From Petrosia ficiformis (taxonomy: Eukaryota; Porifera; Demospongiae; Haplosclerida; Petrosiidae), in contig OX345645.1 in assembly GCA_947044365.1 (NCBI GenBank), forward strand, positions 5,279,741 through 5,343,740: a stretch of DNA of 64,000 nucleotides, given 5' to 3'. The position numbers and the translations under genes are program-made. This document shows, piece after piece, positions 4,653-64,000 of the stretch. The notes under the pieces are model-generated. The model made no database searches and was not told the DNA's origin. It saw nothing but the letters and a program-made list of their open reading frames with translations. Numbering within the stretch: the stretch's first letter is position 1; each line of letters opens with the position of its first letter.

Positions 4653-7600
4653 TTAAAAATATTTCTTCAATTCTTTAGGTGACGGTATGTCTGCCGTTTG
4701 TACTATTGGGTGTGGACCAAGTTTCTTTTCTTTACGTTCAGTAATCAGTGTTTTCTTCATATCATTTAGTATGTCTATCATAATAGATGATTCTGGAATC
4801 CTAACATAACATAATGATGGATGTAGTAACACAGTTGCCCACAATTGATGTATTATTGATATCCAATCTTCTTTATATGTAACTTCAGATAGTAAATATA
4901 CTGGATACAATATAACTGTCATGAACTTCATGTCTTCATTTCTCTTCAACATATTTGTAACATGAGGAATTATTTCTTCATAATACAATGGTGTCAATAC
5001 CTCTTCTGAGATCTCCCATGTATAAAATATTATTGTCAGTGATTTTAGTTTATCAGTAGCTTCAAAGAATTCCTTGAAATTAATATTTTCTGATAATTTA
5101 ATGTTTACATTCAGTTCTTGAAGTGTGTTGTTTCTTCTCAGACCAGTAGTCAGGTATTTGATAAGTAATGTACAATTGGATGCTCGGCTTTTGATCTCCA
5201 GACATTGGAATGATTTGTTTGATGACAACATCAAATGAAGAGATTTTCCCACTTCATCATGAAACAAACCAATATCTTCACAGTTTATTCTAAGAGCTAT
5301 GACGGTTCTGTTACTGGAGAGAATGTTAAATAGTTCATTAAGACTTCCTTCTCTCTCTAGTACTATATCCAGATGTTGTAGAAAAGGGTTAGAATCTAAA
5401 TAGATAATGAATGGCATCAATGGTTTATATAGGGATAGACTTTTCAAGTTAGTAATATTTCTTCCAACATTTTCTAATCCAGGTGACAAAGTTTCTGTTT
5501 TCTGTACAGGATATGTTATGATATCATGTACTGTATCATTACTGATATTTAGTGCTGTAAGAGATTCATTAACTGGTATGATACATAGAGATGGGAGTAT
5601 TCCTTTAATAGGTATATTCAGTTTAACAGCTTGTAAGGTTTGGTTGGTTTTCAATAGCTCTTCAATTTGTAACGACTTAGTATGAGTAGAGTCTGATGAT
5701 AGTGAAAAGAACTGGATTGTATCATTTCTCTCTACTCCAGAAAGCAAACTATTTATTAATGAGTCAAATGGCAAATCTGGCAACTCAATTAAAAGTTCTT
5801 TAATAGTATGATTTGTAGACAATACCTTCTCCATTTCCACTAATAATTCATTATCAATATGATCTTCTGATTCAATAGAAGAAAGGAACATGTCAATGTG
5901 TACATGTAGGATACCCAGATGAGGCATTTTAAATAGTTGTGTGAACATGATCACAAATGAATCAAGATGTATGGTACCACATCTGAATATATTAATATAA
6001 CTTTCTTGAAGGTACTGACACAATGATGATTGGTGTATCTTGATTAGTGATGTGATATCATTATATTTTGCATTCATTACAATGCAATTAGTCATGTTTG
6101 AATCTTCATTGGAATGTTTCAGCATGTCATCATGAAGATGGAGATAATTCCAAGTGATTTTTGAGTTCTTCAGGAGAAAGGAAAAACACAACAAATCAAA
6201 TTGTGATGAATTCACTCTATCTACACAGAGAGAGGAGTTTTTAATGGATGAAACAAATATCTGACACAATGCTTTGTTTTCAGACTCATAAATTAGATGA
6301 AGCAATTGTATAGTATCTGTATCATAATACGGTTCATGAAGAGGATATTTACTCAATGAATAACGAATGTCATCACAAACCAATTGTGGATTCTGATGAA
6401 ACATAGAGTACTGATGAGATTCAAAACCAAACAAAGGGTCCCGTATACACTGTAAGTCTACCTCTTTACTGAAATACTCTTGATAGCTGTCATCTTTAAG
6501 TTCAGTCAGACCTGCCACAAATCTTAGTGTCATGCGAAAGTGAGTTCCATGGAAATGTTCTCTAAACAGCATTTTTTGATCATCATGGTGAGTTATCCAC
6601 CATGCTGCCAGGAACTCCTGAATGGTTAGATGAAGAAACTGATGTTTAGTGGTGTCTGCTATCTTGTAACAGCTCATTAATCCAAAATGTTCACACTTCA
6701 ATGAATGTGATAACTTTAGTATTTCATTTCTATTGAAAGTGGTATTTTGTGTCTTCAGCTTCTCATAAGCACAACAACAAAGTTCATCAAATGCTCTCTT
6801 TTGATTTTCTTGTAGTTCCTCAAGTGATTCAACTGTGTCTGGATCAAGTTCTTGTTTTTCCATTGATCTCTTAACGGCATAAAGAACATATTTCTTGTAA
6901 AACTTAGTCAAAGTGTTAGGAAGAATAAAGTCACACAGCCCATAAACCCTCACTAACATGGAACATACAAAAGGTATATAACATAATGACAAGACATCTT
7001 CCCTAATCTTCAATTCCTCTATTAATTGTTTAGCATTCTTTTCAGTCAGCTCATTCCTGATACATGTAAAAATTTCTTTTTTCTCAAAACCTAATACTTC
7101 AATATGACGAATGTTTGTTTTTTTAAGGAGAATTGATGAGGCATACGTACGTGAAGTAATCATTGTATTACAGCTCTGTAATATATTCCGTTGAATAATA
7201 TTCAGTATGAATGATTGCGTTTGGTCTCTTCCCTTAAACTCATCCCATCCATCAAGTATTAGTAACAAGCCTCTACCATTTGTCTCCATGATATGATCAC
7301 TAACAGTTTCACAAAGCTTTTTACTACTATGAAATAAAGAAACAAGATCAGATATGTTTTTAGCTGATAATACTCTCTCATCTCTAAGATGAAGAAGAAA
7401 AACATGATCAAAGGAACATTTCTTCAATTCATTCTTAGCCCACATGTTACACAGTTTATGACAAAGTGTAGTTTTGCCTACACCTGGAGGTCCATCAACT
7501 ACTACTTTGATTGGACTATTATCATCATTATGTTTCAGTACATCTTGTATCTCTATTTTCTCAGATACATTCATTATATTGTCTAATTTGCCATGTAACA

Positions 7601-9739
7601 TGTTCCATGTTCTACTCCTCCCCTCTTTGTCAGAAAGACATCCTCCATGTCCCTTAATGAGTCCAAGTTGTCCAAACTTGTGTTCATCAACATCTGATAA
7701 TTCATGTTTGTAATAATCTCGTAACTCCTTACTATATATATCACTTTCAGGTATAAGTTCATCAGTTGGTGGCAAAGATGATGATAATCCTGATGAATAT
7801 AACAATCATTACAAGTATAATATACTAGACTGCATGCCTGCATGATTATGGATGGTGATATGCACTACTATGCATCTGTGGTCTAGTAACAAAGTGATTT
7901 GCCTGTATATTCTGATAAAGGTACATGTGGCTCACACACATCAACTCATAATACTGGTAACACTTACTTATCTACTATAAACATATCCAATTCTAGGTGT
8001 GTGGATGAAAGGGGTGAATGATATATAAATTAGCACTAACACTCCTACCTAAACTCTTAACCCTACAATCAAGAATGAAAGTCCCAGGAATGAGGACAAA
8101 TCCAGAAGAACAATTCATAATTCAGAACAGGATGAATATAGCCACTATATATCATACAATACTAACTAAGTGTACCTAAACCTATAATAAATATATAAGT
8201 AGTCAGTAATTATCACTTAAATGAAGACCAATGCCTAATTATTTTCACATTGTGGTTTATCACTATTTTAGAATTACATAATAACGATAAGAATTATATT
8301 AACTACTATGCAGTTCATATAGAATAAACTATTCCACTTACCACATTCATGTTTCAGTTGGTTTGCTAATACATTTTCTCCTACCATATCAAGTGTAGTG
8401 GATAATTTCAGTAGCCCTTCTTCATATGTAGGGAAACTTGTATCCATCTTCAACCATTTATTAAACATTGCTAACATACAGTTTCTCATTATAAAATGAT
8501 TATCATGTTCTATTTCTTTAATATCAGAATCTGATAATCCTAGTAAAACTCCAACATGTTTCCAATCACCCAGTGTAGAAATCTGAGCTGTACGTCTTCG
8601 TAATCTCTCTCGACCTTCAGTACTTAATATTTTCTTTTCTTCTGTTACACCATCATTCTCTTCACATTCATTCATTGATGTATCTAAAACAGTAACAAGA
8701 GTGTGTGGTAAGCAAACATGTATACAGTACAGTTCTTAAGATTTGAAATGTTTGTTTTTTTCATGGGAAAGTACATGTATGAACAAAGGCTAGTACTTTT
8801 AGGAGCACCATGAAAGGTTTGAATTGAAATAATAATGATACTTTAATTATCACATTCTTAAATGTTGAGATTCAGTTTTAGAAGTCAAAATGTGGCCAAA
8901 AATTGGAATACATCTTCATGCAAATGGAAACTTATTTGGGAGGGCATTAGGTGGTTTGGGAACCTGAGAGTTTGTGGTAAGCTTCCATACCTGATGGTAC
9001 GAATTATGTTTCACTATATAGTGTAATGAATACAAGCAACACTTAAGCTCATGAGCTTAACTATAATTACCTTCTTCAATTAGCTTTTTCCTCATTGCAT
9101 GTGCAGTGTCTTTCTCTCCACACCTGTCTACTGATGATATTAACTCTTTCCATGATGCTTCTGATGTGTTCTTAATCCACCAATCCAATGCTATTTCTAT
9201 TGCATATTCATATGTTTGATATTCCTTTATTATAGCTGTCATCTTTCCCTTTACCTCTACTGGAACACTCAGGAAACTTGTTAACAAACTCCACTTACTC
9301 TTAAAATTAAATCCACATTCATACAATAGTGAAACTGCTTTGCCCGGAGTAATCTCTGATAGTGAGTATAGAAATATAATAAATGATCATACTGCATGAA
9401 ATATAGCTCATATTTATATACATTGTAGTAAGTTATATAAATGTGTGTTTAGTACTATATTAAACATAGTAATAACTAACCCACAGGTCCAGGATTAGAT
9501 TCCACATCACCAGAGAGTATCAGTAGTAGAAATATAAACACAGTTAGTATATACAAACACACACTAGTATGACTGAGTAATGTTCTAATACATACTCCAA
9601 CATATTCACTCTCCCAATGATAATCTTTCACTCCTGGATGACTTTGCATGTTATTAACAAGTCTGCTTTTCTTCTTGACAGACTTCATACCACCACCCCA
9701 CATTCCAATAGAAACTCTCCATTGTATGATATCAATCAT
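4653..9739 (-). CDS. NLR1: 2A leader - Death-like - Death - NACHT - LRR receptor (intact)
   Basis: Four coding exons on the minus strand: 9739-9481, 9355-9071, 8683-8342 and 7789-4653. All have gt..ag introns in phase 1. The lengths (259+285+342+3137) sum to 1341 codons with no stop, so the gene is intact (1340 aa). Exon 1 carries a basic/hydrophobic leader and a 2A motif (break after residue 84). Exons 2 and 3 each encode a helical Death-fold domain with conserved Trp residues. Exon 4 encodes the NACHT ATPase: Walker A GPPGVGKTT near residue 395, Walker B LLLILDGWDEF near 470, and the sensor segment TSRTYAS near 510. Leucine-rich-repeat-like sequence follows to the C terminus. By family this should be a cytosolic innate sensor that oligomerises through NACHT and signals by Death-domain contacts; ligand and partners are unknown. 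The start is chosen because MIDIIQWRVSIG is matched by the NLR2 start. Confidence 0.9.
9485..9511 (-). promoter_or_regulatory. 2A ribosome-skipping motif in NLR1 (GDVESNPG^P)
   Basis: Codons 77-85 of NLR1 read GDVESNPGP, a full match to the 2A consensus D(V/I)ExNPGP. By established 2A behaviour the ribosome fails to form the Gly84-Pro85 bond and continues, giving two products. Upstream, residues about 59-76 are strongly hydrophobic (CLYILTVFIFLLLIL), resembling a signal or anchor, with a Lys/Arg cluster at about 19-26. The downstream product would begin with Pro and carry all receptor domains. Skipping efficiency cannot be judged from sequence alone. Confidence 0.9.
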
Positions 9740-21772: not shown

Positions 21773-23088
21773 CAGTGCGTGGGTGTATCAAAGGTACCGA
21801 CACGTGTTTATATTACATAACCACTATAAGGGCAGTTGGAAGGCATCATCTAAATGCCAAATCAGGCAATTAGAAGGCAAAAATGGCGTTTTTTCTTTAA
21901 ACTTTTTAAATACAATGTGAAAGGCAAACTCAATTTTTCTTGTTCAGCAAATGAAATATGATATACAAGTGAACTGAAAGGAAGTTCAATTTTTTTTTCA
22001 ATAAATGAGAACTGACTGCGACTGCACACTGGCATTGCTGGGCCCATAAGTACCATAATTGATGTTGACAACACAGTGTTTAAGGACACCGAAGGTCGGA
22101 AAAGGTAGGGGTGTTATGGCTGTTGCTTCTTCTGATTTACATTTGCTTTCGCCAAACTTTGGCTCATTGAAACAAGAAAATATTGGCACACACTTGTTCT
22201 CAACACTGCGTTCAATGAGGCATCCAGACCGATTCTTAGATCCATTCTCAGTGTATACATATCTGTCTGGGTCATACAAACGCTTCAGCTGTGACAGCTT
22301 CAAATTTCTGTGCTCACATCCTCCCCTAAGACAAAAGTTTTTACCATTACAATAGAACACAGCAGACAGCAAGGCTTTTGGGTTTTCTGTGCTGAGAACA
22401 CCATTTTCCCACAATGCAGCTTCCTCCTCAGATGTAACGACGCTAGCGTGTTTCACCTCAGCTCCTACACCATCTATCCTCAGCTGCCGTCCTAAGTTAT
22501 CTACAGCACCATGTAGCTCTTTGAAATGATAATTATTCTTGTCTAAGAAATTGGGACATTCAGGATCAATTGAGCGCATATGACGCAAGATTCCAGATAA
22601 AAGTTGGTAGACAGTGGTCAAAGGATACCGTTGACCATCAGCACGTCGTGTTTCTAGTACATAAATGGTCAACCAATGGTTCAGCTCCTCGATGTTCCAC
22701 GGAGCGTGTTCGAAAAGATCTGAGCGACATACTTCTTGTGGGTAGTGCCTTTCTCGTTCTGCTCTCCAATCGTTGAAGTTTCTCAAGGCCCAGCTAGTAT
22801 TCTTCTTAGTATTTTTGGGCACGATTGGTTTAGTTAGTTCTGACAAATTTTCTGAAACTGACTGTCCAAATCTCCTTTTTCTAAGAGAAAGTGATTTTCG
22901 ACGTTTCTTCTTCATTGGCTCTTCCAGTTCTAACGGGACGTTCTCCTTCTCTGACCCTTCTTCTCCAGCAGCCACAATATTCTCCATCTCTGTATATTGT
23001 AACGTGTTTCAGACTGAGGTCAAGGTCATACGCATGCGCAGTACGTAATGCAGACGTGTCGGTGCCTTTGATACACCCACGCACTGTA
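21773..23088 (-). mobile_element. TIR-bounded element carrying a DUF3504/Crypton-type ORF
   Basis: The left end (ACAGTGCGTGGGTGTATC, then AAAGGTACCGACACGT) is mirrored at the right end (ACGTGTCGGTGCCTTTGAT, then ACACCCACGCACTGT), making ~34-bp inverted repeats with one or two differences. AGT flanks both sides, a possible 3-bp target duplication. The whole ~1.3 kb is covered by a minus-strand ORF plus flanks. Cryptons are not normally TIR elements, so either the ORF was captured or the element type is unusual. Confidence 0.75.
21998..22987 (-). CDS. DUF3504 / Crypton-derived tyrosine-recombinase-like protein, C-terminally incomplete
   Basis: A 329-residue frame opening with an acidic then lysine/arginine-rich N terminus (KKKRRKSLSLRKRR, a likely nuclear signal). 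Next comes the core typical of DUF3504 proteins related to KIAA1958/QRICH1/ZMYM and Crypton recombinases: NFNDWRAERERHYP, LNHWLTIYVLETRRADG, VYQLLSGILRHMR, the segment around NPKALLSAVFYCNGKNF, and CLRGGCEHRNLKLSQL. The first recombinase arginine (in LRGG..HR) is present. The distal H-x-x-R and catalytic Tyr region expected downstream is absent, because the frame ends soon after NINYGTYGPS. It is therefore unlikely to be an active recombinase by itself. It lies inside a TIR-bounded element, so it is probably transposon cargo rather than a host gene. Confidence 0.7.
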   Translation of the reverse strand: MENIVAAGEEGSEKENVPLELEEPMKKKRRKSLSLRKRRFGQSVSENLSELTKPIVPKNTKKNTSWALRNFNDWRAERERHYPQEVCRSDLFEHAPWNIEELNHWLTIYVLETRRADGQRYPLTTVYQLLSGILRHMRSIDPECPNFLDKNNYHFKELHGAVDNLGRQLRIDGVGAEVKHASVVTSEEEAALWENGVLSTENPKALLSAVFYCNGKNFCLRGGCEHRNLKLSQLKRLYDPDRYVYTENGSKNRSGCLIERSVENKCVPIFSCFNEPKFGESKCKSEEATAITPLPFPTFGVLKHCVVNINYGTYGPSNASVQSQSVLIY

Positions 23089-26407: not shown

Positions 26408-29400
26408 TTAATGCCATGTTTTTACTATTGGATGTGGACCAAGTTTCTTTTCTTTACGTTGAGTAATCAGTGTTTTCTTCATATCATTTAATATGTCTAT
26501 CATAATAGATGATTTTGGAATACTAACAAAACATAATGATGGATGTAGTAACACAGTTTCCCACAGTTGATGTATCATTGATATCCAGTCTTCTTTATAT
26601 GTAACTTTACAGAATTTAGATCCAATGAGTAGTACAGATCCCATGAGAACTTCTAGGAACTTCATATCTTCATTTCTCTTCAACATATTTGTAACATGAT
26701 GAATTATCTCTTCATAGTACAATGATGCCAATACCTGTTCTGAGATCTCCCCTGTATAGAATTCCACAGTCAGTGATTTTAGATTATCAGTAGCTTCAAA
26801 GAATCCTTTCAAATTTGTATTTTCTGATAATTGAATGTATACATTCAGTTCTTGTAGTGTATTGTTTCTTCTCAGACCAGTAGTCAGGTATTTGATAAGT
26901 GATGGACAATTGGATGGTAAAATTTTGATCTCCAGACATTGTAATGATTTGTTTGATGACAACATCAATTGAAGAGATTTTCCCACTTCATCATGAAACA
27001 AGCTATAGTAGTCACATTGAATTCTACATGTAAGAGCTATGACAGTTCTGTTACTGGCAAGAATGTTAAATATTTCATCAAGACTTTCCTCTCTCTCTAG
27101 TACTATATCCAGATGTTGTAGAAAAGGGTTAGAATCTAAGTAGGTAATGAATGGCATCAATGGTTTATATAGGGATAGACTTTTCAAGTTAGTAATATTC
27201 CTTCCAACATTTTCTAATCCAGGTGACAAAGTTTCTGTTTTCTTTACAGGATATGTTACGATATCATGTAATGTATCATTACTGATATTCAGTGCTGTAA
27301 GAGATTCATTAACTGGTAGATCTAGAGATGGGGGTATTCCTTTAATAGGTATATTCAGTTTAACAGCTTGTAAGGTTTGATTGTTTTTCAATAGCTCTTC
27401 TATTGGTAATGACTCAATAAAAGTAAGATTTGATGGTAGTGAAAAAAACTGGATTGTATCATTTCTCTCTACTCCAGTAAGCAAACTATTTATAAATGAG
27501 TTGAATGGCAAATCTGACACAGTTAAAAATTCTTTAATAGTATGATTTGTAGACAATACTTCCTCCATTACCACTAATAATTCATTATCAATGTGTTGTT
27601 TTGATTGATAAAGCGACTTCTGTTTAATGTGTACATGTAGGATATTCAGATGAGGCAGTTTGAACAGCTGTGTGAACATGTTCACAACTGAATTGGGATG
27701 TATGGTACCAGATTTGAATACATCAATATAACTTTCTTGAAGGTACTGACACAATGATGATTGGTGTATCTTGATTACTGATGTGATATTATGATATCCT
27801 GCTTTCATTACAATGCAATTAGTTATGTTTGAATCTTCATTGTAAGGTTTCAGCATGTTATGACCAGATTCATGATGGAAATAATTCAAAGTAATCTGTG
27901 AGTTCTTCAAGAGAAAGGACAAACACAATAAATCAAACTGTGATGAATACACTCTATCTACACAAAGAGAGGAGTTTTTAATGGACGAAACAAATATCTG
28001 ACACAATACTTTATTTTCAGACTCGTAAATTAGATGAAGTAATTGTGTAGTATCTGTATCATAATAAGGTTCATGAAGAGGATATTTAATCAATGAATTA
28101 CAAGTGTCATCACAAAGCAATTGTGGATTCTGATGAAATACATAGTACTGATGAGATTCAAAACTAAACAATGGTTCCCTTATACACTGTAAATCCACCT
28201 CTTTACTGAAATACTCTTGATAGCTGTCATCTTTAAGTTCAGTCAGACCTGCCACAAATCTTAGTGTCATGCGAAAGTGAGTTCCATGGAAATGTTCTCT
28301 AAACAGCATTTTTTGATCATCACGGTGAGCTATCCACCATGCTGCCAGGAACTCCTGAATGGTTACATGAAGAAACTGATGTTTAGTGGTGTCTGCTATC
28401 TTGTAACAGTTCATTAATCCAAAATGTTCACACTTCAATGAATGTGATAACTTTAGTATTTCATTTCTATTGAAAGTGGTATTTTGTGTCTTCAGCTTCT
28501 CATAAGCACAACAACAAAGTTCATCAAATGCTCTCTTTTGATCTTCTTGTAGTTCCTCAAGTGATTCAACTGTGTCTGGATAAAGTTCTTGTTTTTTCAT
28601 TGATCTTTTTACAGCACTAAGAACATATTTCTTGTAAAATTTAGTCAAAGTGTTAGGAAGAATAAAGCCACTCAGCTGATAAACTCTCACTAACATGGAA
28701 CATACAAATGGTATATAACATAATGACAAAACATCTTCCTAATCTTCAATTCCTTTATTAATTGTTCAGCATTCCATTCAGTCAGCTCACTCCTGATATA
28801 TGAAAAAATAACTTTTTCCTTAAAACCTAATACTTCAACATGACGATTAACACTCTGTAGTTGACAAAGTTTTGCTGAAGCATATGTACGTGAAGTAACT
28901 AGTACATTACATTTGTGTAGTTGTCTACCTTGAATAGTATCCAGTATGAATGATCTGTTTTGGTCTCTTCCTTTAAATTCATCCCATCCATCAAATATTA
29001 CTAACATATCTTTACCATTTGTCTGCTTGATTTTTGTACTCATGTTATCACAAATCTCTTCATCGCTATGAAATAGTGAAACAAGATCAGATATGTTTTC
29101 AGCTGATGATACTTCCTCATCTCTGAGAGAAACAGCAAAGAGTAGATCAAAGGAACATTTTTTCAGTTCATTCTTAGCCCACATGTTACACAATTTATGA
29201 CAAAGTGTAGTTTTTCCTACACCTGGAGGTCCATCAACTACTACTTTGATTGAACTATTATCATCATTTTGTTTCAGTACATCTTGTATGTCTATTTTCT
29301 CTGATACATTCATAATCTTATCTAATTTTCCTCATAACATATTCCATGACCTCTTTATTCCTTCTGGTTCAGATAGACATCCTCCATGTCCCTTAATGAG

Positions 29401-31132
29401 TCCTAGTTGTCCAAACTTGTCTCCACCAAAACGTCGATCTAACAAGTCATTATATACTACAGGATTTTGATGATACCGATCACGCAAACCTTGAACAAAC
29501 TTGTCAGTATCAGTGGTGACGTGGAATGATGAGTCATCTAATGACACACCTGTGTTAATTTATATTAGAATTTCATATATATTGGTTACAAGGATTATTA
29601 TTTTAATTCCTTACCTAATTCTTTCATCATAGTTTTACATATCATAGACATCACTGAGTTTTTCTGATCGATTAATACTCTACACAACGAAATGAGTGGC
29701 TCTGGATTTTTATTGATTTTAAGAGATCTCTGAACTTCATTTAGTAATTTACTGGTCTTCTCATAACGAGGAACACTTGGAGTAGATATGATATTATCTT
29801 TAACAACATTAGATATTAGACCAACACTCCACAAATCATTAGCAAGTCTATTTGGGTCAGAGACCACATCAAGTATTTAAGAGAAATGTCTCTTCAGTAT
29901 ATTAAATGGTGTTAACTGATTAGGTTCACAAGATATCTGTGTACATGGATCATCTATAGCTTGTGCTTTTTCAGATGTAGAGGCTAAATCAAGATCAATG
30001 TTGAACATAAGTATAATAATTATAACATTATTATTTATTATAAACGTGAAACATTTTTCTTATATGCAGAAATCATTTCACACACAATGGTAAAATAACT
30101 ACTGAATGCATGTGTACAATGAAATGAATTATTTATATGGAGACATGGGGATTAAATTTTATGGGCTGGAGAATCTGATGTTTTTTCTCAAGGGATTAGT
30201 CTATATAATATTATTACATGCTTGTGAAACATAATGTGTACACAATACATAATTAGAAATGTACAATCATTAATCAAGTAATGGATGTGGCATTTAAAAC
30301 AACATTTAGTCAAGCTAAGACAAGCTGGAGATAAGCATCTAGTTGGAAGAAGAAGAATGTGTTTACACAAGCTCTTTAGAACTGAATTATTACTTGCTAT
30401 ATATAACATATATAATAGAGAGATACATAATATCGTCAACATTTGCCATTACTAATCAGTGTTTATATAGTAACTTACTATAATGAGATGAGTCTAGTTG
30501 AGAGGATATATTCAACTTCTGCTGATCATCAAGATCCAATACTTTTCTCAGTGCAGACACAACATTCTCATTAGTTTCACACTTTTCAACTGCTGAAAGC
30601 AATCCCTCCCATGATGACTGTGGTGTGTTTGATATCCAAGAATCCAATGCTTGTTCTAAAGCAAAGTGATAGTCTTGTGTTGTCTGTGCCTCTTCTCTTA
30701 ACCTCTTTCTCTCAACAATGGAGATACCTATAATACCAGCAAGTCTGTTCCATTTCTCTGGTATATTAAAACCACTCTGTTGAAGAATATTCAATCCTTC
30801 ATTGGCAGTTAATTCTAAAGTGATAGATGAATACTTTCATTTCAAATCATTACAGTTATACAAAAAAACTGACCTATATTAACAGGTCCAGGATTAATTT
30901 CCACATCACCACATAGTATTAGTAGTATCATGACAAGTGAATAGGATAATATGACAGCTTTAGTGAGTATTGCTTGTAATAACCTCAGTGATCCAAGCAA
31001 CCATTCATCCACTGAGTGTGACATTTCTCCATGATCAACTCTTTTTTTTAATCTTTTCCTCTTGTGACTGCCCATAACACTGGAACAATACCATGTACCA
31101 ATAGTAACCCTCCATTGTATTAGATCAATCAT
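26408..31132 (-). pseudogene. NLR2: 2A leader - Death-like - CARD-like - NACHT - LRR, broken
   Basis: Exons on the minus strand: 31132-30874 (leader and 2A), 30814-30479 (Death-like), 29983-29615 (a helical CARD-like module with DPNRLANDLWS, SKLLNEV and MKELG), and 29549-26408 (NACHT-LRR). All introns are phase 1. Against NLR1 three lesions are visible: a TAA in the third exon after KRHFS (about 29,878-29,880); a TGA after WNML (about 29,333-29,335) where NLR1 has His; and loss of one G in GGGAAGATG near 28,740, shifting frame inside the helical domain after the ATPase core. Walker A (GPPGVGKTT) and Walker B (MLVIFDGWDEF) remain recognisable. The LRR half (from 28,729) is open to the stop at 26,408. 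Either a recent pseudogene or partly assembly error; the two stops are not homopolymer-type errors. Confidence 0.85.
30884..30910 (-). promoter_or_regulatory. 2A ribosome-skipping motif in NLR2 (GDVEINPG^P)
   Basis: Codons 75-83 read GDVEINPGP, again a full consensus match. The predicted break is after Gly82. The segment before it (AVILSYSLVMILLILC) is hydrophobic and is preceded by a basic cluster (HKRKRLKKR). The exon is 259 bp, exactly as in NLR1, though its middle has diverged. The motif has survived although the gene body is broken, which fits recent inactivation. Confidence 0.9.
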
Positions 31133-44813: not shown

Positions 44814-46807
44814 TCAAACACAACCAAACACCCTCAAATGACTTAGGTCTGGTTTCCTTTGGTACCATTTCTCATATGGTGATACCTTTTCCTTAAATGC
44901 AATGGTGGGAACTCTGTTCCTAATATAAGCTGCTGTAGCCACAGCTTCGCCCCAATAACTATCAGGTATCTTCGCAAATCCAATCATGGTTCTTGCTGAC
45001 TCCATCAAGGTATGGTTTAGTCTTTTTGCTACACCATTCTGTGCGGGAGAGTACGGGACAGTGAGTTCATGTCTGATTCCTTTTGACTTAAGAAATTCTT
45101 CAAATTCTTTAGAAACATATTCCCCACCATTGTCTGTACGAAGTGTACTAATTTCCAATCCAGTTTTGTTTGTAACACGGGCTTCGAACTCTTTAAATTT
45201 ATCTAAAACTTCAGATTTGTGTCTCATAAAATAGACTTGACAACATCTCGAATAATCATCAGTAAATGACACAAAATATCTCTTTCGTCCTAAGAACTCA
45301 GTGGGCATTGATCCACATACATCACTGTGAACACATTGTAACTTTCTAGTGGAGCGAATTCCTCCAACACTCTCAAATGATTTTCTGTGCATTTTTCCTT
45401 CAATGCATAATTCACAAAATAATAATTCATCACTCTTCGAAATGGTCACTCCTCTCACAAGCTCTTTAGAAACCAATTCTCTCATTTGCTGTTTCCCTAA
45501 ATGGCCAAGTCTTCTATGCCATAAATTGGCTGAGTTACCCTTTCCACATGCTGTTGAGGCATACTGTTGCACTTGCACTACGGGTTCACAGTCTAATTTA
45601 TATAACTTATCATCAACCAATGACCCCGTGCCAATTAACTTCCCTTTTCTATCCTTAATACAACAAATTAAATTTCCGAATCTAACTGTATTGCCCTTTG
45701 ATACTGCTGCTCTCACAGAAAACAAATTACATGTAAGTTTGGGAACATACAACACACCTCTCATGAAACAACTTTTCTGCTCGCTAACCTTAAATCAGTT
45801 AAATGTCATATTAACTTGAATATCTCCTGTACCAATAGCTTCCACGGTACGTCCATCTCCAAGGCTTACTTTTTCTGGAACTTCAAACTCACGATAATAA
45901 TAAAATAGTTCCTTTGAATGAGTCATATGACTAGTAGCACCAGAGTCTATTATCCACTTTTCAGTCATTGACGAACCAACTGAGGCTGTAAATACTCCCT
46001 CTGGCTCCTGCGACATCTCTTTAGCAGGTTTCGCATTGTGTCCAACCGTTGGTTTCTCCTGTGATTGCTTGGGACAGTCATCCGTCCACACGTAAAACAC
46101 TTCGGTTTCCATTGACGACGCCGTCTGTTACCACCTCTCTCTCAATGTTCACGATTATGATAAAGTGCTGAAACTTCATGACATTGGGAACTTGATTCCC
46201 CACTTAGTTTTCTTTATTTATGAATTAGCGATTGCTGAACATAGCTCAGCGTGACTTCATCTCGAGCCTCAAGAGCTGTAACTAGTGTTTTATCACATGC
46301 AGGCAAACTACCAAGGAGCATTACCACCTGGTCTTCTTCTGCAATATGTGTTCCAAGTGCGGCGAGTTTATCAGTCAATTCCTTCATTCTCTTCATGTGA
46401 GCATCAACCGGGGTACCTTGTTTCATCTCCAGACGAAAGTATTCCTTTTTAAGTAGAAGTTTGTTTGCGAGCGTGTCTCTTTCAAAATGATCACACAAAG
46501 CATCCCATGCTGGCTTCGATCTATCATACGAAGTGATAAAGTAAAGTTGAGACGAGCTAATAGAGAGTACGATTGTTGAGAACGCTTTCTGTAACCTCTT
46601 ATTATATTCAGCTTCTTGCTGAGCTGTCACTCCTCGTCTGAGGACCTCCATTTCATCTACTAGACCCTACAGGCCACTAGCCAGCAACAGATGTTTCATC
46701 TGGAACATCCAGATGGACCAATTGTTTGCATCTAGCCTGTCAATAGAACATTTTGCTTGTCCAATTGTTGCTTCAGCCATAATAGCGTCGATCTGGGCTC
46801 ATAACCT
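44814..46807 (-). mobile_element. Ty1/Copia LTR retrotransposon, 5' part only, degenerate
   Basis: Minus strand. The leader ends with a primer-binding site at 46,793-46,806. Gag starts at 46,780 (MAEATIGQAKCSIDRLDANN) but has a stop after LLLASGL; the rest of Gag (UBN2-like) is 46,651-46,214. The protease region 46,112-45,795 has the active site WIIDSGATSHM. Next come the pre-integrase zinc-binding region (LWHRRLGHLG ... CELCIEGK) and the integrase core with HSDVCG, FTDDYSR and LRTDNGGEYVS, ending at FGCV near 44,814. Reverse transcriptase and RNase H are absent: homology stops there. A 5' LTR should begin at 46,807 going right; I could not fix its far end, and no 3' LTR was seen. An inactive remnant. 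Confidence 0.85.
46793..46806 (-). promoter_or_regulatory. Copia primer-binding site matching the tRNA-iMet anticodon arm
   Basis: The plus strand reads CTGGGCTCATAACC, matching the metazoan initiator-tRNA anticodon region CTGGGCCCATAACC with one change. It lies immediately next to the presumed LTR end (...AACA on the coding strand) and 12 nt before the gag ATG. This fits priming by an internal half-tRNA, as known for Drosophila copia. Confidence 0.65.
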
Positions 46808-47897: not shown

Positions 47898-48765
47898 TTA
47901 TTCATCTATATCTACAATTGGAGGTGGACCAAGTTTGCTTTTTTTACGTTGAGTAATCAAAGTTTTCTTGATATCGTTTAATACGTCTATCATAAGAGAG
48001 GAGTTTGAAATCGTAATATAACATAATGATGAATGGAGTAACACGATTTCCCAGAATTGATGTATCATTGGTATGCAGTCATCTTTAATTGTATCTTCAG
48101 AGGATAAATATGGAATGACTCTAATTTTAAGGAAGTTCATGCCTTTATTTCTCCTTAACATATTTGTAACATGAGGAATTATTTGTTCATGGTAAAATGA
48201 TATCAATATACGTTCTGAGATCTTCCATGATTTAAATAATACTGTCAGTGATTTCAGATTGTCTGTAGCTTTAAAGAATTCCTTTGAATTAAAATTTTCC
48301 AAAAATGGAATGTGTACATTCAGTTCTTGTAGTGTGTTGTTCATTCTCAGACCAGTAGTAAGGTATTTAATAAATGATGTAAAATCAGAGATAATAAAAC
48401 TTGTTTCCATCTCAAGACATTGTAATGTTTGATTTGATGATAGCATCAATTGCAGAGATTTTCCTACTTTATCATGAAAATTGTTTTCACATCTAATCCT
48501 CAGTGCTATGACAGTTCTGTTGCTGGAAAGAATGTCAAACAGTTCATTAACACTTCCCCTTCTGTCTAGTACTATGTCCAGATATTTTAATAAAGGGTTA
48601 GAATCTAAGTAGATAACGATTGGCATCAATGGTTTATATAGAGATAGACTTTCCAAGTTTGTAAAATGTCTTCTAACAATTTGTAGTCCTGATGACAAAG
48701 TTTCTGTTTTCTTTACAGGATATGTTACGATATCATATAGTGTATCAGCTCCTTCAGTAATATAG
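47898..48765 (-). pseudogene. NLR tail fragment (LRR-like C terminus)
   Basis: A continuous minus-strand frame from about 48,765 to the stop at 47,898, homologous to the last ~290 residues of NLR1/NLR2: DTLYDIVTYPVKKTETL, NLESLSLYKPLMPIVIYLDS, LFDILSSNRTVIALRI, TTGLRMNNTLQELNVHI, IPHVTNMLRRN, KKTLITQRKK, then a divergent end. It is more diverged than the other copies. Homology ends abruptly at about 48,765 where dispersed repeat B begins; no NACHT or N-terminal exons follow. A truncated relic, although the frame itself is open. Confidence 0.85.
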
Positions 48766-51762: not shown

Positions 51763-54420
51763 ATGATTAACCTTAAATCTTCTCCCACTCATTCACTCAA
51801 CATTCTTTCTTTAAATGTTCGTAGTCTACTTCCTAAGTTTGATGAATTCTGTCTTGCTCTGATTAATTATCAACTTTTTCGTAAAGATAGAAACCGACAT
51901 GGTGGAGATGTTCTTCTTTACATTCATTCTAATATTTTTGCTGTCCCTTTAAAGCTTTCTTGTGATCTTGAACTTCTTTTGGTTTCAGTTAAAGTTTTCA
52001 ACCAAACTATTATAGACCTCCTTCCTTACTTAATGGCGTTTTTGATTTAGTTGAACTTCTTTCTTTTATTCCTCCTGAGTCTATTCAAAATCTTATAATT
52101 GCTGGGGATTTTAATGTTGACATGTCTTCCCCAAGTGGACTACTATTTAGTGACTTTTCCTCCCTTTTAAATCCTTTCTCTTTGTCTCAGATAGTATCTT
52201 CACCTACTTGTACTCCTGTACTTGGTTCTTGTCCTATTATTGATCTTGTTCTTGTTCCTGATAGTTTAAGTGCCTCATCGGTAATTTTACCTCCAGTTTC
52301 TTCTTCTGATCATAATTCTGTACTTTCTACTGTTTCTCTGAGATCTACTGCTCATTTTAACAGACAGCCTCCGAAACAAAAAATTTGGCTATATCATCTT
52401 GCTGATTTTGATATGGCTAATTTTCTTTTATCTTCAATTCCTTTGGATACTCTTCTCTCTTCTGATTTAGATTTATCATGGAATACTTTTAAGGATAATT
52501 TTATGAGAGTAATTGATCATTGTATTCCATTGAAGTATTCTTGTCCATCTTCTTTCCCTCCTTGGATTGATTCTGACTTGAAAATGAAAATTCAATGTCG
52601 TCAAAAGCTCTTTATTCAAGCCAAGAGATGAAATAGTTCTTCAATTCGTCAAACCTATTGTTCTCTTCGAAATTATATAACCTCTACTATTGGATTAAAG
52701 AAATTTCAATTCTTTCGCTCTCTATCTTCCTCTTCTCCTAAAAAGTTCTGACCTTATGATCGATCTACAAGAAAAACTTCCTCATCTGTTCCCCCTCTCA
52801 CTTTTAAAGATAAAATCTTTACCTCTGATTGTGATAAAGCTGATATTTTGAATGAATATTTTTCTGGCTGTTTTAATTCATCCATTCCTCCCCTTTCCTC
52901 TTTTTTACCTGCTTTTGGTCAGTCCTCTCTTCCTCCATCTTACCTCTGTACTCAGTCTCAAGTTCTTTCTTTGATTGCTAATCTGCCTCTTGACTCTGCT
53001 TCTGGTCCTGACTTCATTTCTACTCGTAAGCTTAAACATACTGCTCACTCTATCGTCTCTCCTCTCACTCATATTTTTAATTTATCTCTGTCTTTAGGTC
53101 GTGTTCTTTCCGATTGGAAAAACTCTTTTATTGTTCCTATACCAAAATCCTCTTCTAATGCCAGTGATCCTTCCAACTATCATCCTATATCTTTACTTTC
53201 TGTGATTAGTAAAATTCTTGAAAAGCATGTTCACTCCATACTCTACAGTTTTTGTTTAGACCATAATCTCGTGTCCCCTATCAATTTGGTTTCTCACCTA
53301 ATCGTTCAACCTCTTCAGCTCTTCTATTTGCTACTAACTCTTTTCATATTATTCTTCAAAACAATAAAGCAATTTGTACTTGCTTTCTTGATCTGAAGAA
53401 AGCATTCGATACTGTTCCTCATGCTCCATTAATTGACTTTCTTTCCTCTTTCAATTGTCCTCCTATTTTACTTAAATGGCTTCATTCATATTTATCATCT
53501 CGTTCTCAGCAAGTCGTTTTCAATGGATCCTCCTCTTCTTCTCTTTCAGTTCTATCTGGAGTTCCTCAAGGATCCATTCTTGGACCTCTTCTCTTTCTCA
53601 TTTACATTAATGGTATTACTTCCGTTCCTTTATCCCCTCTTCTACTTTAATTTTATATGCTGATGACATTCTTATCTTTCGTCCAATTGATAATGAATTG
53701 GACCTTTCTACTTTCCAAAATGATCTTAATTCTATATCCTTGTGGCTTTCCACTAATTTCCTCTCCCTGAATCCTTCTAAATCCAAGTATATGTTTCTGT
53801 CTTATAGGCGTTCTATATTTATTAATTCACTTCCTCCTCTCTGTCTTTCTGGTTCACCTTTGGAATTAGTTACTGAATTTAAGTATTTAGGTGTCACCTT
53901 ATCTTCTTCTTTATCTTGGTCTCCCCACATTTCTAACATTGTGCAAAGGCTCGTAAATTGCTTGGTCTTTTGTATCGCCAATTTTATTTCTATTCTGATA
54001 CTTCTACACTTTTACATTTTTATATTTCCCTTATTCGTCCTCATCTTGAATACTGCTCTTTTCTTTTTGACCCTCATTCTTCTCATCTTTCTTCTAAAAT
54101 TGAAAACGTCCAATACTTTGCTTGTAAAATTTGCAGCAAAGATTGGTTATCTGATTATACGTTTCTTCCAAGACCCAGTCTGCTCTGAATTTTTTTCCCA
54201 AATTCAATTAAATTATGGAATTCTTTGCCACACCATGTTAAATCATCTAAGTCAATAAGTCAACTCAAGTTTTATATTAGATCTTATATGTAATAAAATT
54301 ATAATTATCCTAAATATTTAATTAAGTTCTGTTTTTTTATTTATGTAAACTTACTCTTCGTATTAGCCCTCGGCTATTGAGTATTTATGCTAACAAAAAA
54401 ATTAAAATAAAAAATATTAA
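51763..54420 (+). mobile_element. Non-LTR retrotransposon (LINE), CR1/Jockey-like, degenerate
   Basis: Plus-strand endonuclease-reverse transcriptase spread over several frames. Endonuclease motifs: LNILSLNVRSLLPKFDEF, NRHGGDVLLYIHS, IIAGDFNVDMS, and the terminal SSDHNSV. Reverse transcriptase: DWKNSFIVPIPKS, SNYHPISLLSVISKILEKHV, NKAICTCFLDLKKAFDTVPH, SGVPQGSILGPLLFLIYING, LILYADDILIF (catalytic YADD) and FKYLGVTLS. Frameshifts, in-frame stops and a missing stretch after the endonuclease mean it cannot encode an active protein. No ORF1 was recognised. The 3' end is AT-rich with a TAATATTAATATTAAT tail near 54,410-54,430. The coding strand is conspicuously pyrimidine-rich. Confidence 0.9.
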
Positions 54421-60078: not shown

Positions 60079-62235
60079 CTAATTGTTATTGATATTTAGT
60101 GCTGTAAGAGATTCACTGATGCATAGAGATTGTAATATTCTTTTAATGGATATATCTAATTGAACAGCTGGTAAGGTTTGGTTGTTTTTCAATAGCTCTT
60201 GAATGAGTAATAACTTAGTCCGAGTATAGTCTGATGATAGTGAAAAGAAATGGATTATATCATTTCTCTCTACTCCAGTAAGCAAACTATTTATTAATGA
60301 GTTGAATGGCAAACCTGACAACTGAATTAAAAATTCTTCAATAGTATGATTTGTAGACAATACCTTCTCGATTTCCAGTAATAATTCATTATCAGTATGA
60401 TCTTCTGATTGAACATATGATGACTTCAGAATGTGTACATGTAGGATACTCAGATGAGGCAGTTTAAACAGTTGTGTGAACATGGTCACAACTGAATCAG
60501 GATGTATGGTACCATACATGTGGACTACATTAATATAACTTTCTAGAAGGTACTGACATGATGATGATTGGTGTATCTTGATTACTGATGTCATATCACA
60601 GTATTTTGTTTTTTGAATCTTCATTGTAAAGTTTCAGCTTGTCATGAAGATATGAATGATGTAGATAGTTCCAAGTGATCTTCAAGTTATTCAGGAGAAA
60701 GGAAAAACGCGAAATTGTGATGAATACACTCTATTTACACAAAGAGATGAGTTTTTAATGGATAAAACACACAATACTTTGTTTTCAGACTCGTAAATTA
60801 GACTAAGTAATTGTATAGTATGTATATCATAATAGGGTTCATGAAGAGAATATTCAGTGATGCTTGAATAACGAATCCCATAACAAAGCGATAATTGTGG
60901 ATTCTAATGAAACATAGAGTACTGATGAGGTTGAAAACCAAACAATGGTTCCCTTATACACTGTAAATCTACCTCTTTACTGAAATACTCTTGATAGCTC
61001 TCATCTTTAAGTTCAGTGACAACAGCCACAGATTGCTGATGTGACATCTTTATGTCTAGTTTTCAATTACTTGTGTCTGAATGTTCATTGAAAAATGTGC
61101 AATTGTCATGAACATATGAATGATGGAGATAATTCCAAATGATATTTGAGTTCTTCAGGAAAAAGGACAAGCACAGTATATCAAATTGTGATGACTTCAC
61201 TGTATCTACACAAAGAGAGGAGTATTTAATGGATGAAGCAAATATCTGACACAATGTTTTGTTCTGTGACTCATAAATTAGATGAAGCAATTGTATTGTA
61301 TCTGTATCATAATAGGGTTCATAGTTGACATATAATATGTCATCACAAAGCATCTGTGGATTCTTATAATTTACAGAGTACTGATGAGAATCAAAACCAA
61401 ACAATGGTATCCTTACACAATGTAAGTCCACCTCTTTACTGAAACAATCTTGATAGCTGTGATCTTTAAGTGCACTGAGACCTGCCACAAATCTTAGCGT
61501 CATCCGAAAGTGAGTATCCTCAAAATGTTCTTGAAACAGCTTTTCTTGATCATCTTGTTGAGATATACACCATGCTGCCAGTAACTCCTGAATAGTTTAA
61601 TGACGAAATTTATATGTACGTGAAGTAATCATTATACTGCAGCTCTGCAATGCTTTCCGTTGAATGATATCCAGTATGAATGATCTGTTTTGGTCACTAC
61701 TGTTAAACTCATTCCATCCATCAAATATTAATAACATATCTTTACCATTTCGCTTTTTGATTTTATTAATAACATTTTCGCATATTTCTTCACAGCCATG
61801 AAATAAAGAAACAAGATCAAATATGTTTTCAGTTGATAATACTTTTTCATCTCTGAGAGGAAGAAGGAAGACATGATCAAAAGAACATTTCTTCAGTTCA
61901 TTCTTAGTCCACATGTTACACAGTTTATGACAAAGTGTAGTTTTACCTACACCTGGAGGACCATCAACTACTACTTTGATTGGACTATTATCATCATTAT
62001 GTTTCAGTACATCTTGTATATCTACTTTTTCTGATACATTCATTATATTATCTAATTTGTCATGTAACATATTCCATGTTCTCTGCATCCATTCTTGTTT
62101 AGAAAGACTTCCTCCATGTCCCTTAATGAGTCCAAGTTGTCCAAACTTACATTCATCAACATCATGTTTATAATAATCTCGTAACTCCTTGCTAAATCCA
62201 ACACTTTCAGTTATATGTTCATCAGTTGGTGACAA
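60079..62235 (-). pseudogene. NLR3: NACHT-LRR fragment, deleted and internally duplicated
   Basis: Minus strand. 62,235-61,597 matches the start of the NLR1 NACHT exon: KFGQLGLIKGHGG, Walker A GPPGVGKTTLCHKL, LLIFDGWNEF (Asn for Asp at the second acidic position of Walker B) and SRTY. The sequence then jumps from SRTY to KFRH, a stop and TIQELLAAW, skipping about 175 residues of the NLR1 equivalent. 61,503-61,063 encodes FVAGLSALKDHSYQDCFSKE onward; a second, worse copy of that segment follows at about 61,030-60,640 (tandem duplication). 60,624-60,079 covers the first LRR part and stops after LTALNINNN. No 2A, Death or CARD exons lie upstream, although the NLR1 intron-like flank is still recognisable to about 62,740. 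Not functional as a receptor. Confidence 0.85.
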
Positions 62236-63049: not shown

Positions 63050-64000
63050 CTATGCCTCCACTATTGGATGTGGACCAAGTTTCTTTTCTTTACGTTGAGC
63101 AATCAGTGTTTTCTTCATGTGTTTTAGTATATCAATCACAAAAGATGATTTCTGAATTGCAACATAACATAATGATGGATGCAGTAACACAGTTTCCCAG
63201 AATTGATGTATCATTGGTATCCAGTCTTCTTTATATGCATGTCTAGGTGGTAAAGATCGACCAAGTATAAATTTCAGAAACTTCATGTCTTCATTTCTCT
63301 TCAGCATATTTGTAACATGAGGAATTATCTCTTTATAATACAATGATGTCCATACCTGTTTTGAGATCCCTGAGCTGTAAAATTTCACTGCCAGTGATTT
63401 TAGATTACAAGTGGCTTCAAAGAAGTCCTTCAAATTAATATTTTCTGATAATTCAATGTCTACATTCAGTTCTTGTAGTGTGTTGTTTCCTCTCAAACCA
63501 GTAGTCAGGTATTTGATAAGTAATGTACAATTGGATGCTCGACTTTTGATCTCCAGACATAGTAGTGATTTGCTTGATGACAACATCAATTGAAGAGATT
63601 TTCCCACTTTATCATGAAACAAATCAATACCATCACAGTTTATTCTCAGAGCTACGACAGTTCTGTTACTGGAGAGAGTATTAAATAGCTCATTAAGATC
63701 TCCTTCTTTCTCTAATGCTATATCCAGATGTTGTAGAAAAGGGTTAGAATCTAAATAAATAATGAATGGCATCAATGGTTTATATAGGGATAGACTTTTC
63801 AAGTTAGTAGTATTTCTTCCAACATTTTCTAATCCAGGTGGCAAAGTTTCTGTTTTTTTTTACAGGATATGTTATGATATCATGTACTGTATAATTACTG
63901 ATATTTAGTGCTGTAAGACATTCATTAGCCGGTATGATATACAGAGATGGGAGTATTTCTTTAATAGGTATATTGAGTTTAACAGCTCGTAAGCTTTGGT
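63050..64000 (-). CDS. NLR4: C-terminal LRR part, continues beyond the window
   Basis: The minus-strand frame 63,844-63,050 encodes the same C-terminal block as NLR1 (GLENVGRNTTNLKSLSLYKP, LMPFIIYLDSNPFLQHLDI, TTGLRGNNTLQELNVDIELS, KKTLIAQRKEKKLGPHPIVE). Homology continues to the window edge (SNYTVHDIITYPV upstream). At about 63,855-63,863 a run of nine A residues (coding strand) is one longer than needed, putting the two parts in different frames; this could be real or a homopolymer sequencing error. The 3' flank is shared with NLR1 and NLR2. Its N-terminal architecture cannot be seen. Confidence 0.75.

Follow-up and report, generated by a model that had tools for sequence, protein, structure and literature searches.

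The minus strand of the analysed window, a 64-kb stretch of DNA (C10:5279741-5343740) in a sponge assembly of 191 Mb and 29 contigs, carries a NACHT receptor gene, NLR1, whose four exons (9739-9481, 9355-9071, 8683-8342 and 7789-4653) join into a single frame of 1,340 aa, in agreement with an earlier note on this DNA. All three introns have GT-AG edges and all three are phase 1; these edges, the shared phase and the open frame of 1,340 codons make the predicted 9481/9355 splice junction possible. Exon 1 (9739-9481), the leader exon, begins with the ATG at 9739 and ends in phase 1 after GPV plus G. It encodes an N-terminal QWR head (residues 1-14, MIDIIQWRVSIGMW; 9698-9739), a basic segment (residues 19-26), a hydrophobic predicted helix (residues 59-77; 9509-9565), which is the top-scoring 19-residue window with a mean hydropathy of 2.57, and the 2A/StopGo core GDVESNPGP (residues 77-85; 9485-9511), with the predicted break between Gly84 and Pro85. 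The basic and then hydrophobic leader ending in GDVESNPGP that the earlier note had described is thus present in exon 1. By hydropathy, the residues remain hydrophobic right up to the 2A core, a candidate for the upstream context on which 2A activity depends and which a motif by itself does not reveal; the core fits the 2A/StopGo consensus (D/G/C/N)(V/I)ExNPGP.

Exon 2 (9071-9355) encodes a Death-like region, the first domain past the predicted break, with a weak match to Pfam Death below the cut-off (E 0.028), and exon 3 (8342-8683) encodes a Death domain (Pfam Death, 2e-6, residues 220-260). Exon 4 (4653-7789) contains the NACHT domain (7038-7511; Pfam, 5e-25) and, up to the stop, a C-terminal region that was assigned by a fold model. 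Pfam models detected no LRR in exon 4 even at E≤10. The last 400 residues (4656-5855) show alternating strands and helices in an AlphaFold model of moderate confidence (mean pLDDT 62), and the PDB matches of this model include NAIP/NLRC4 and NLRP3 chains (TM 0.43-0.48; the best with E 2e-6 and TM 0.43). On this model, the case for an LRR-like C-terminal region is fair but not proven. The motif, together with the Pfam matches to Death and NACHT, bears out the claim that this intact NACHT receptor has a leader with a canonical 2A.

We then considered the origin of the motif in the window. As DNA, it lies on the minus strand at 9508-9486 (DVESNPGP with the next base) and in a second copy at 30907-30885. 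Chance was rejected as its origin, with 0 matches in 100 dinucleotide-preserving shuffles of the window and 0 in the reversed-pattern controls. A 2A within a retrotransposon inserted in NLR1 was also ruled out, since the leader forms an exon, has a phase-1 donor and is followed by a Death-like exon, as in 39 of 40 other loci in which that exon is on the leader's strand.

The second copy of the motif belongs to NLR2 (26417-31132, minus strand). Its leader, at the gene start (30881-31132), was recognised by the motif and the leader match; it is of family B and intact, with the 2A CGDVEINPGP. A Death-like exon 2 follows (30534-30815; 90% to family B exon 2), and the NACHT exon (26417-29250) is broken across two frames, with the NACHT at 29250-28777 and the C-terminal region at 28738-26417 (ORFs of 213 and 776 aa). 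With its NACHT exon in two frames, NLR2 has the appearance of either a pseudogene or a misassembly. More NACHT-family pieces lie on the minus strand at 47913-48746, 60082-61980 and 63053-63998; they are up to 77% alike, with their order or frames broken, and no leader adjoins them inside the window. The window further contains Copia-type LTR pieces (44814-46666, minus strand) with gag (1e-34), pre-integrase and integrase, non-LTR retrotransposon pieces (51993-54258, plus strand) with endonuclease and reverse transcriptase matches, and an ORF (21998-23008, minus strand) that matches DUF3504 (3.6e-15) and, weakly, QRICH1, and that may have come from a mobile element.

The leader family and its two conserved islands

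The earlier note had proposed a search of other sponge NLR first exons, which was carried out in part and found the same leader repeatedly. As DNA, the 2A motif occurs at 205 genome sites, against 0 for the reversed pattern. The 86-aa leader protein as query gave 149 matches at E≤1, of which 108 were full-length (residues 1 to 85 or 86), distributed over C10 (54), C3 (26), C1 (17), C2 (6), C9 (3), C5 (1) and C11 (1). The exact 2A is present in all 34 full-length leaders on C1, C2 and C3 to 2.01 Mb, where the motif-site list is complete, and in 54 of 57 further ones covered by a codon-restricted list; 17 of the 108 lie outside both lists. Among the three that the codon-restricted list missed, L066 has an intact 2A on reading, and L059 ends in NPGL.

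Many of the leaders stand ahead of NACHT receptors. Among 103 scored NACHT loci out of 249 candidates, 65 have a full leader less than 5 kb upstream on the same strand, against one downstream on the same strand and none on the opposite strand; within 10 kb, the corresponding numbers are 69 upstream, 8 downstream and 1 on the opposite strand. Leaderless loci thus number 38 of 103 within 5 kb and 34 of 103 within 10 kb upstream. Conversely, 71 of the 108 leaders have a listed NACHT within 10 kb downstream, and 37 do not. When 40 loci were fetched by leader position, a Death-like exon 2 was found in all of them, in 39 on the leader's strand, and exon 3 and the NACHT were not detected in some, partly because the loci are short. 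Exon 2 matched Pfam Death below the cut-off in four of five cases tested, with no match in the fifth.

Two loci depart from this arrangement. L060 (C11:2056000-2060900) is a lone leader with a Death-like exon downstream and no NACHT found in the 4.9-kb locus, and it is perhaps another kind of leader-bearing gene. At the other, a NACHT (C1:25256693-25257160) is preceded at about 1.4 kb by a QWR head (C1:25258592-25258626, minus strand) for which the next 350 nt hold no canonical 2A; this head is perhaps part of a leader whose 2A was lost or changed.

For the conservation analysis, we read 42 leaders; two of them lie in the window, and the other 40 came from two parts of the list ranked by leader score and were thus not picked by motif. 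In 39 of the 42, a donor site could be assigned downstream of the 2A, always in phase 1, and the leader exon therefore fits any phase-1 exon. The QWR head (M....QWR..IG.W) is intact in 41 of 42, as is D(V/I)ExNPGP, and in-frame stops occur in two; the consensus of the head is M-I-D-x-x-Q-W-R-x-x-I-G-x-W. In the 40 stop-free leaders, residues 1-14 and the 2A each had a dN/dS of 0.23 (ranges over resampled leader sets 0.19-0.26 and 0.20-0.31, respectively), against 0.80 (0.76-0.85) in the linker and 0.84 (0.72-1.06) in the hydrophobic stretch. This position-picked set replaced an earlier one of 51 motif-picked leaders, which had given 0.25 for the head, 0.82 for the linker, 0.61 for the helix and 0.20 for the 2A. 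Several codons of both islands vary synonymously, which indicates selection on the peptide.

An AlphaFold model of the leader, of low confidence (mean pLDDT 64), has a helix at residues 4-16, a low-confidence part at 20-35 and a long helix at 40-81. Among 157 database leaders with Trp at residue 14, the end of the hydrophobic stretch is separated by a median of 7 residues from the NPG|P break, with a net charge of +3 before and -2 after it; the hydropathy of the stretch is at least 1.6 in 148 and weaker in nine. As judged by the conservation of two separate islands in its sequence, the leader is thus more than a signal peptide and goes beyond a 2A signal sequence.

The same module on other genes, on Helitrons and in other databases

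We next searched for the head independently of the 2A. A DNA pattern for the head, M-(I/V)-xxx-QWR-xx-(I/V)-G, which does not include the 2A, occurs at 190 genome sites, and its reversed form at none. The lists of head and 2A sites are both complete for C1 and C2; there, a 2A follows 50 of 72 head sites on the same strand within 350 nt, 47 times in frame, and a head lies upstream of 50 of 86 2A sites. The 36 headless sites include other 2A classes, namely CR1-like copies (L025 and L031), in which the 2A comes with a PHD finger or endonuclease and no QWR head, and headless Helitrons (L018). The headless Helitron-type class (L018 1348-3021; L009, L011, L013-L015 and L017) has the 2A GDIEQNPGP and a zinc ribbon with no QWR head, and L018 also matches DUF6570 (8e-23). 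Its existence means that head and 2A can separate.

The module was also found on genes of other kinds. On C1, the leader at L029 stands ahead of an open frame that encodes ankyrin repeats (Ank_2, 1.4e-23). The ankyrin case comprises this locus and a match from Amphimedon queenslandica, P0226 (LOC100638883), in which the head, a hydrophobic stretch and GDVELNPGP are followed by a domain similar to the L029 protein (29% over 82 aa, E 5e-10). Furthermore, L010, L020, L035 and L038 start with head and 2A, and in L020 and L035 a zinc-ribbon-like stretch lies in the same frame. In the copy on C5, the leader 2A, DUF6570 and Helitron_like_N lie within one open frame of 2,352 aa; this protein was assigned to Helitrons by its domains. 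Three more Helitron copies have open frames of 2,246, 2,211 and 2,232 aa spanning DUF6570 and Helitron_like_N, with the head and 2A in phase with both domains. A 2A lies within 6 kb upstream of 9 of 66 Helitron_like_N matches on C1 and C2, one of the nine being headless, and the majority of Helitron remnants there are thus without an upstream 2A.

The likeness of the Helitron heads was scored with a profile built on residues 1-40 in 120 database leaders, from which the helix end and the 2A were excluded. The first 36 residues of four Helitron heads gave 23.4, 16.0, 13.7 and 12.0 bits, each above all of its 4,000 shuffles, narrowly so for L038 and L035 (shuffle maxima 12.9 and 10.7), and the headless L018 scored -0.9.

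In the protein databases, leaders were recovered as short ORFs; among large proteins, NLR1 residues 1-110 gave 33 candidates, none at E≤0.1. A ten-leader query found 710 proteins at E≤0.01, and the best 120 of the 710 have the head in all 120 cases and the exact 2A in 119. Five Helitron-type starts as query found 156 proteins, the best 120 of which divide by pattern into 71 with head and 2A, 29 with the 2A alone, 8 with the head alone and 12 with neither. Both motifs were present by pattern in 189 of these 240 proteins, and the other 51 were left out. Residue 14 is Phe or Tyr in all 22 leaders whose 2A is followed by a CPxC zinc ribbon; among the other 167, which have no such ribbon, it is Trp in 157, Phe in nine and Tyr in one, and some of these ten look mobile-element-like. 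In a tree of 187 leaders, which is no more than indicative given its 42 columns, all 24 mobile-type leaders and six others form one clade with support 0.92. A second A. queenslandica protein, P0237 (A0A1X7TI8), combines head and 2A with a Death domain that falls just short of the cut-off (22.3 of 22.6 bits). The named relatives of the leader thus belong to A. queenslandica, which points to a sponge as the source of the assembly.

Two leaders stand ahead of an endonuclease-like start (E 0.0055 and 0.13), which hints weakly at non-LTR elements that bear the same QWR head. One protein of 199 aa, P0185, has four 2A-like motifs in series, the canonical GDIEKNPGP and GDVELNPGP and two off-consensus ones, and would yield a string of small peptides. 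A viral origin of the leader was rejected, since 31 viral-contig stretches fit the peptide pattern and 0 were confirmed by tblastn.

Predicted translation and role of the leader

We consider it probable that exon 1 is an autonomous leader module, at which ribosomal skipping yields a cytosolic receptor and a separate, tail-anchored leader peptide. The module would consist of the conserved QWR head, a fast-drifting linker, a single hydrophobic helix and the StopGo core. On most ribosomes, the Gly84-Pro85 bond would be left unmade, to give an 84-aa leader peptide with its sole membrane helix at the C-terminus, and a cytosolic receptor that starts at Pro85 and has the order Death-like, Death, NACHT and LRR-like. 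The ribosome tunnel holds about 30-40 residues, and the helix would still be inside it at the break, so that SRP binding would not yet be possible. The freed leader would insert later as a tail-anchored peptide, with its QWR head facing the cytosol. Where a ribosome fails to skip, the helix would serve as a signal anchor and take the receptor to the ER, on the far side of the ER membrane.

Among the closest known systems is the NLR leader of the sea urchin, a precedent that the earlier note had mentioned and that proved to be real. Roulston et al. (2016; PMC4981915) describe, for one Strongylocentrotus purpuratus NLR leader, about 80% recoding in cell-free translation, by the authors' qualitative estimate, and, with recoding blocked, delivery of a reporter to the Golgi of HeLa cells; the leaders are 26 aa long in the 14 tabulated there, and 85 of 241 family members carry an N-terminal 2A. 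Both families share D(V/I)ExNPGP near the N-terminus of NACHT receptors, a hydrophobic stretch just ahead of it, the predicted separation and a large share of members with the motif. The sea-urchin leaders tabulated lie at the extreme N-terminus, whereas the sponge leader has at least 84 aa, which include the conserved QWR head and the drifting linker, and also occurs on an ankyrin protein and on Helitrons. The 2A of NLR1 does lie in the N-terminal part of a NACHT receptor, but 84 aa precede the break and the head is about 60 residues upstream, and because of this length and the head we did not file the sponge leader under the 26-aa SpNLR2A type. Since the NLR1 core is the same as that of the sea-urchin leader, skipping is likely at the NLR1 leader, which probably works like SpNLR2A; dual targeting of the NLR1 receptor is possible.

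Other known systems share single features with the sponge leader. The core is that given for viral StopGo/2A elements, (D/G/C/N)(V/I)ExNPGP (PMC12846837), but the sponge copy lies in a host gene at the end of the first exon and not between the proteins of a viral polyprotein. 2A sequences in non-LTR retrotransposons, named in PMC4981915 and PMC11512398, likewise lie near the start of a mobile-element protein, as in L025 and L031 of this genome with their PHD finger or endonuclease; the leader-bearing elements here are instead Helitrons, and L025 and L031 are without the QWR head. Sponge NLRs with transmembrane segments, for which membrane-bound receptors are suggested in PMC12909245, are also sponge NACHT proteins with a predicted TM segment, whereas the NLR1 helix is N-terminal and followed by the 2A. 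Thus, an N-terminal 2A on NLRs with dual targeting is already known from the sea urchin (PMC4981915), and what is new, at the level of sequence, is the QWR head and the spread of the leader across unrelated genes and transposons in a sponge genome. An open-access literature search found no reports of 2A in sponge NLRs or Helitrons, an earlier mention being possible, and the matches examined for Amphimedon and 2A were gene names ('protein 2a-like').

If the leader were simply a signal sequence, dual targeting could itself be the purpose, with the 2A controlling how the receptor is divided between the cytosol and a secretory or membrane pool, and the freed leader being waste. We regard this as unlikely, because it leaves unexplained both the head with a dN/dS of 0.23 about 60 residues before the 2A and the occurrence of the same head on Helitrons. 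The known partners of NACHT receptors are cytosolic, and a receptor in the ER lumen would be kept away from them. The strong hydrophobic stretch in 148 of the 157 database leaders is nevertheless what a signal sequence predicts, and reporter experiments in both plant and HeLa cells have shown dual targeting by a sea-urchin NLR leader (PMC4981915), with TM segments also reported in sponge NLRs in the Dysidea paper (PMC12909245). The latter paper, which discusses predicted membrane-bound sponge NLRs, would also fit an inert 2A behind a leader acting as a plain N-terminal membrane anchor; this is very improbable, as an anchor requires the helix and not NPGP, whereas the 2A residues are fixed (41 of 42) while the helix drifts (dN/dS 0.84).

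We give hardly any credence to the leader being a recent, functionless leftover of a mobile element, with its likeness between loci due to the youth of the gene copies. Many copies are indeed close paralogues, and the same module is present on Helitrons, but the linker and helix are near neutral between the fixed islands, so that youth does not account for the latter. Moreover, A. queenslandica proteins share the head and the 2A, and the mobile-type leaders stand apart as one clade (support 0.92 on 42 columns).

Returning to the autonomous leader module, we favour a separate job for the leader peptide, since neither dual targeting nor the 2A needs a conserved head about 60 residues upstream. 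More tentatively, each receptor mRNA may be a two-product unit that makes the receptor and, in a ratio of about 1:1, a tail-anchored microprotein whose QWR head would act at a membrane from the cytosolic side, for instance as a docking or control partner common to the receptors; the leader would then be a portable, mobile-element-related first exon, exchanged between Helitrons and host immune genes, perhaps a single time, before the split from Amphimedon.

StopGo motifs are described as very rare in cellular coding sequences (PMC12846837). Against this stated rarity, one animal genome holds 108 full-length copies of a single leader of fixed design ahead of immune-type receptors. The putative membrane-bound sponge NLRs would also be open to an alternative reading, if those receptors carry the leader and the 2A. 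Finally, a predicted module of translational control is, in this leader, common to a transposon and an innate immune family.
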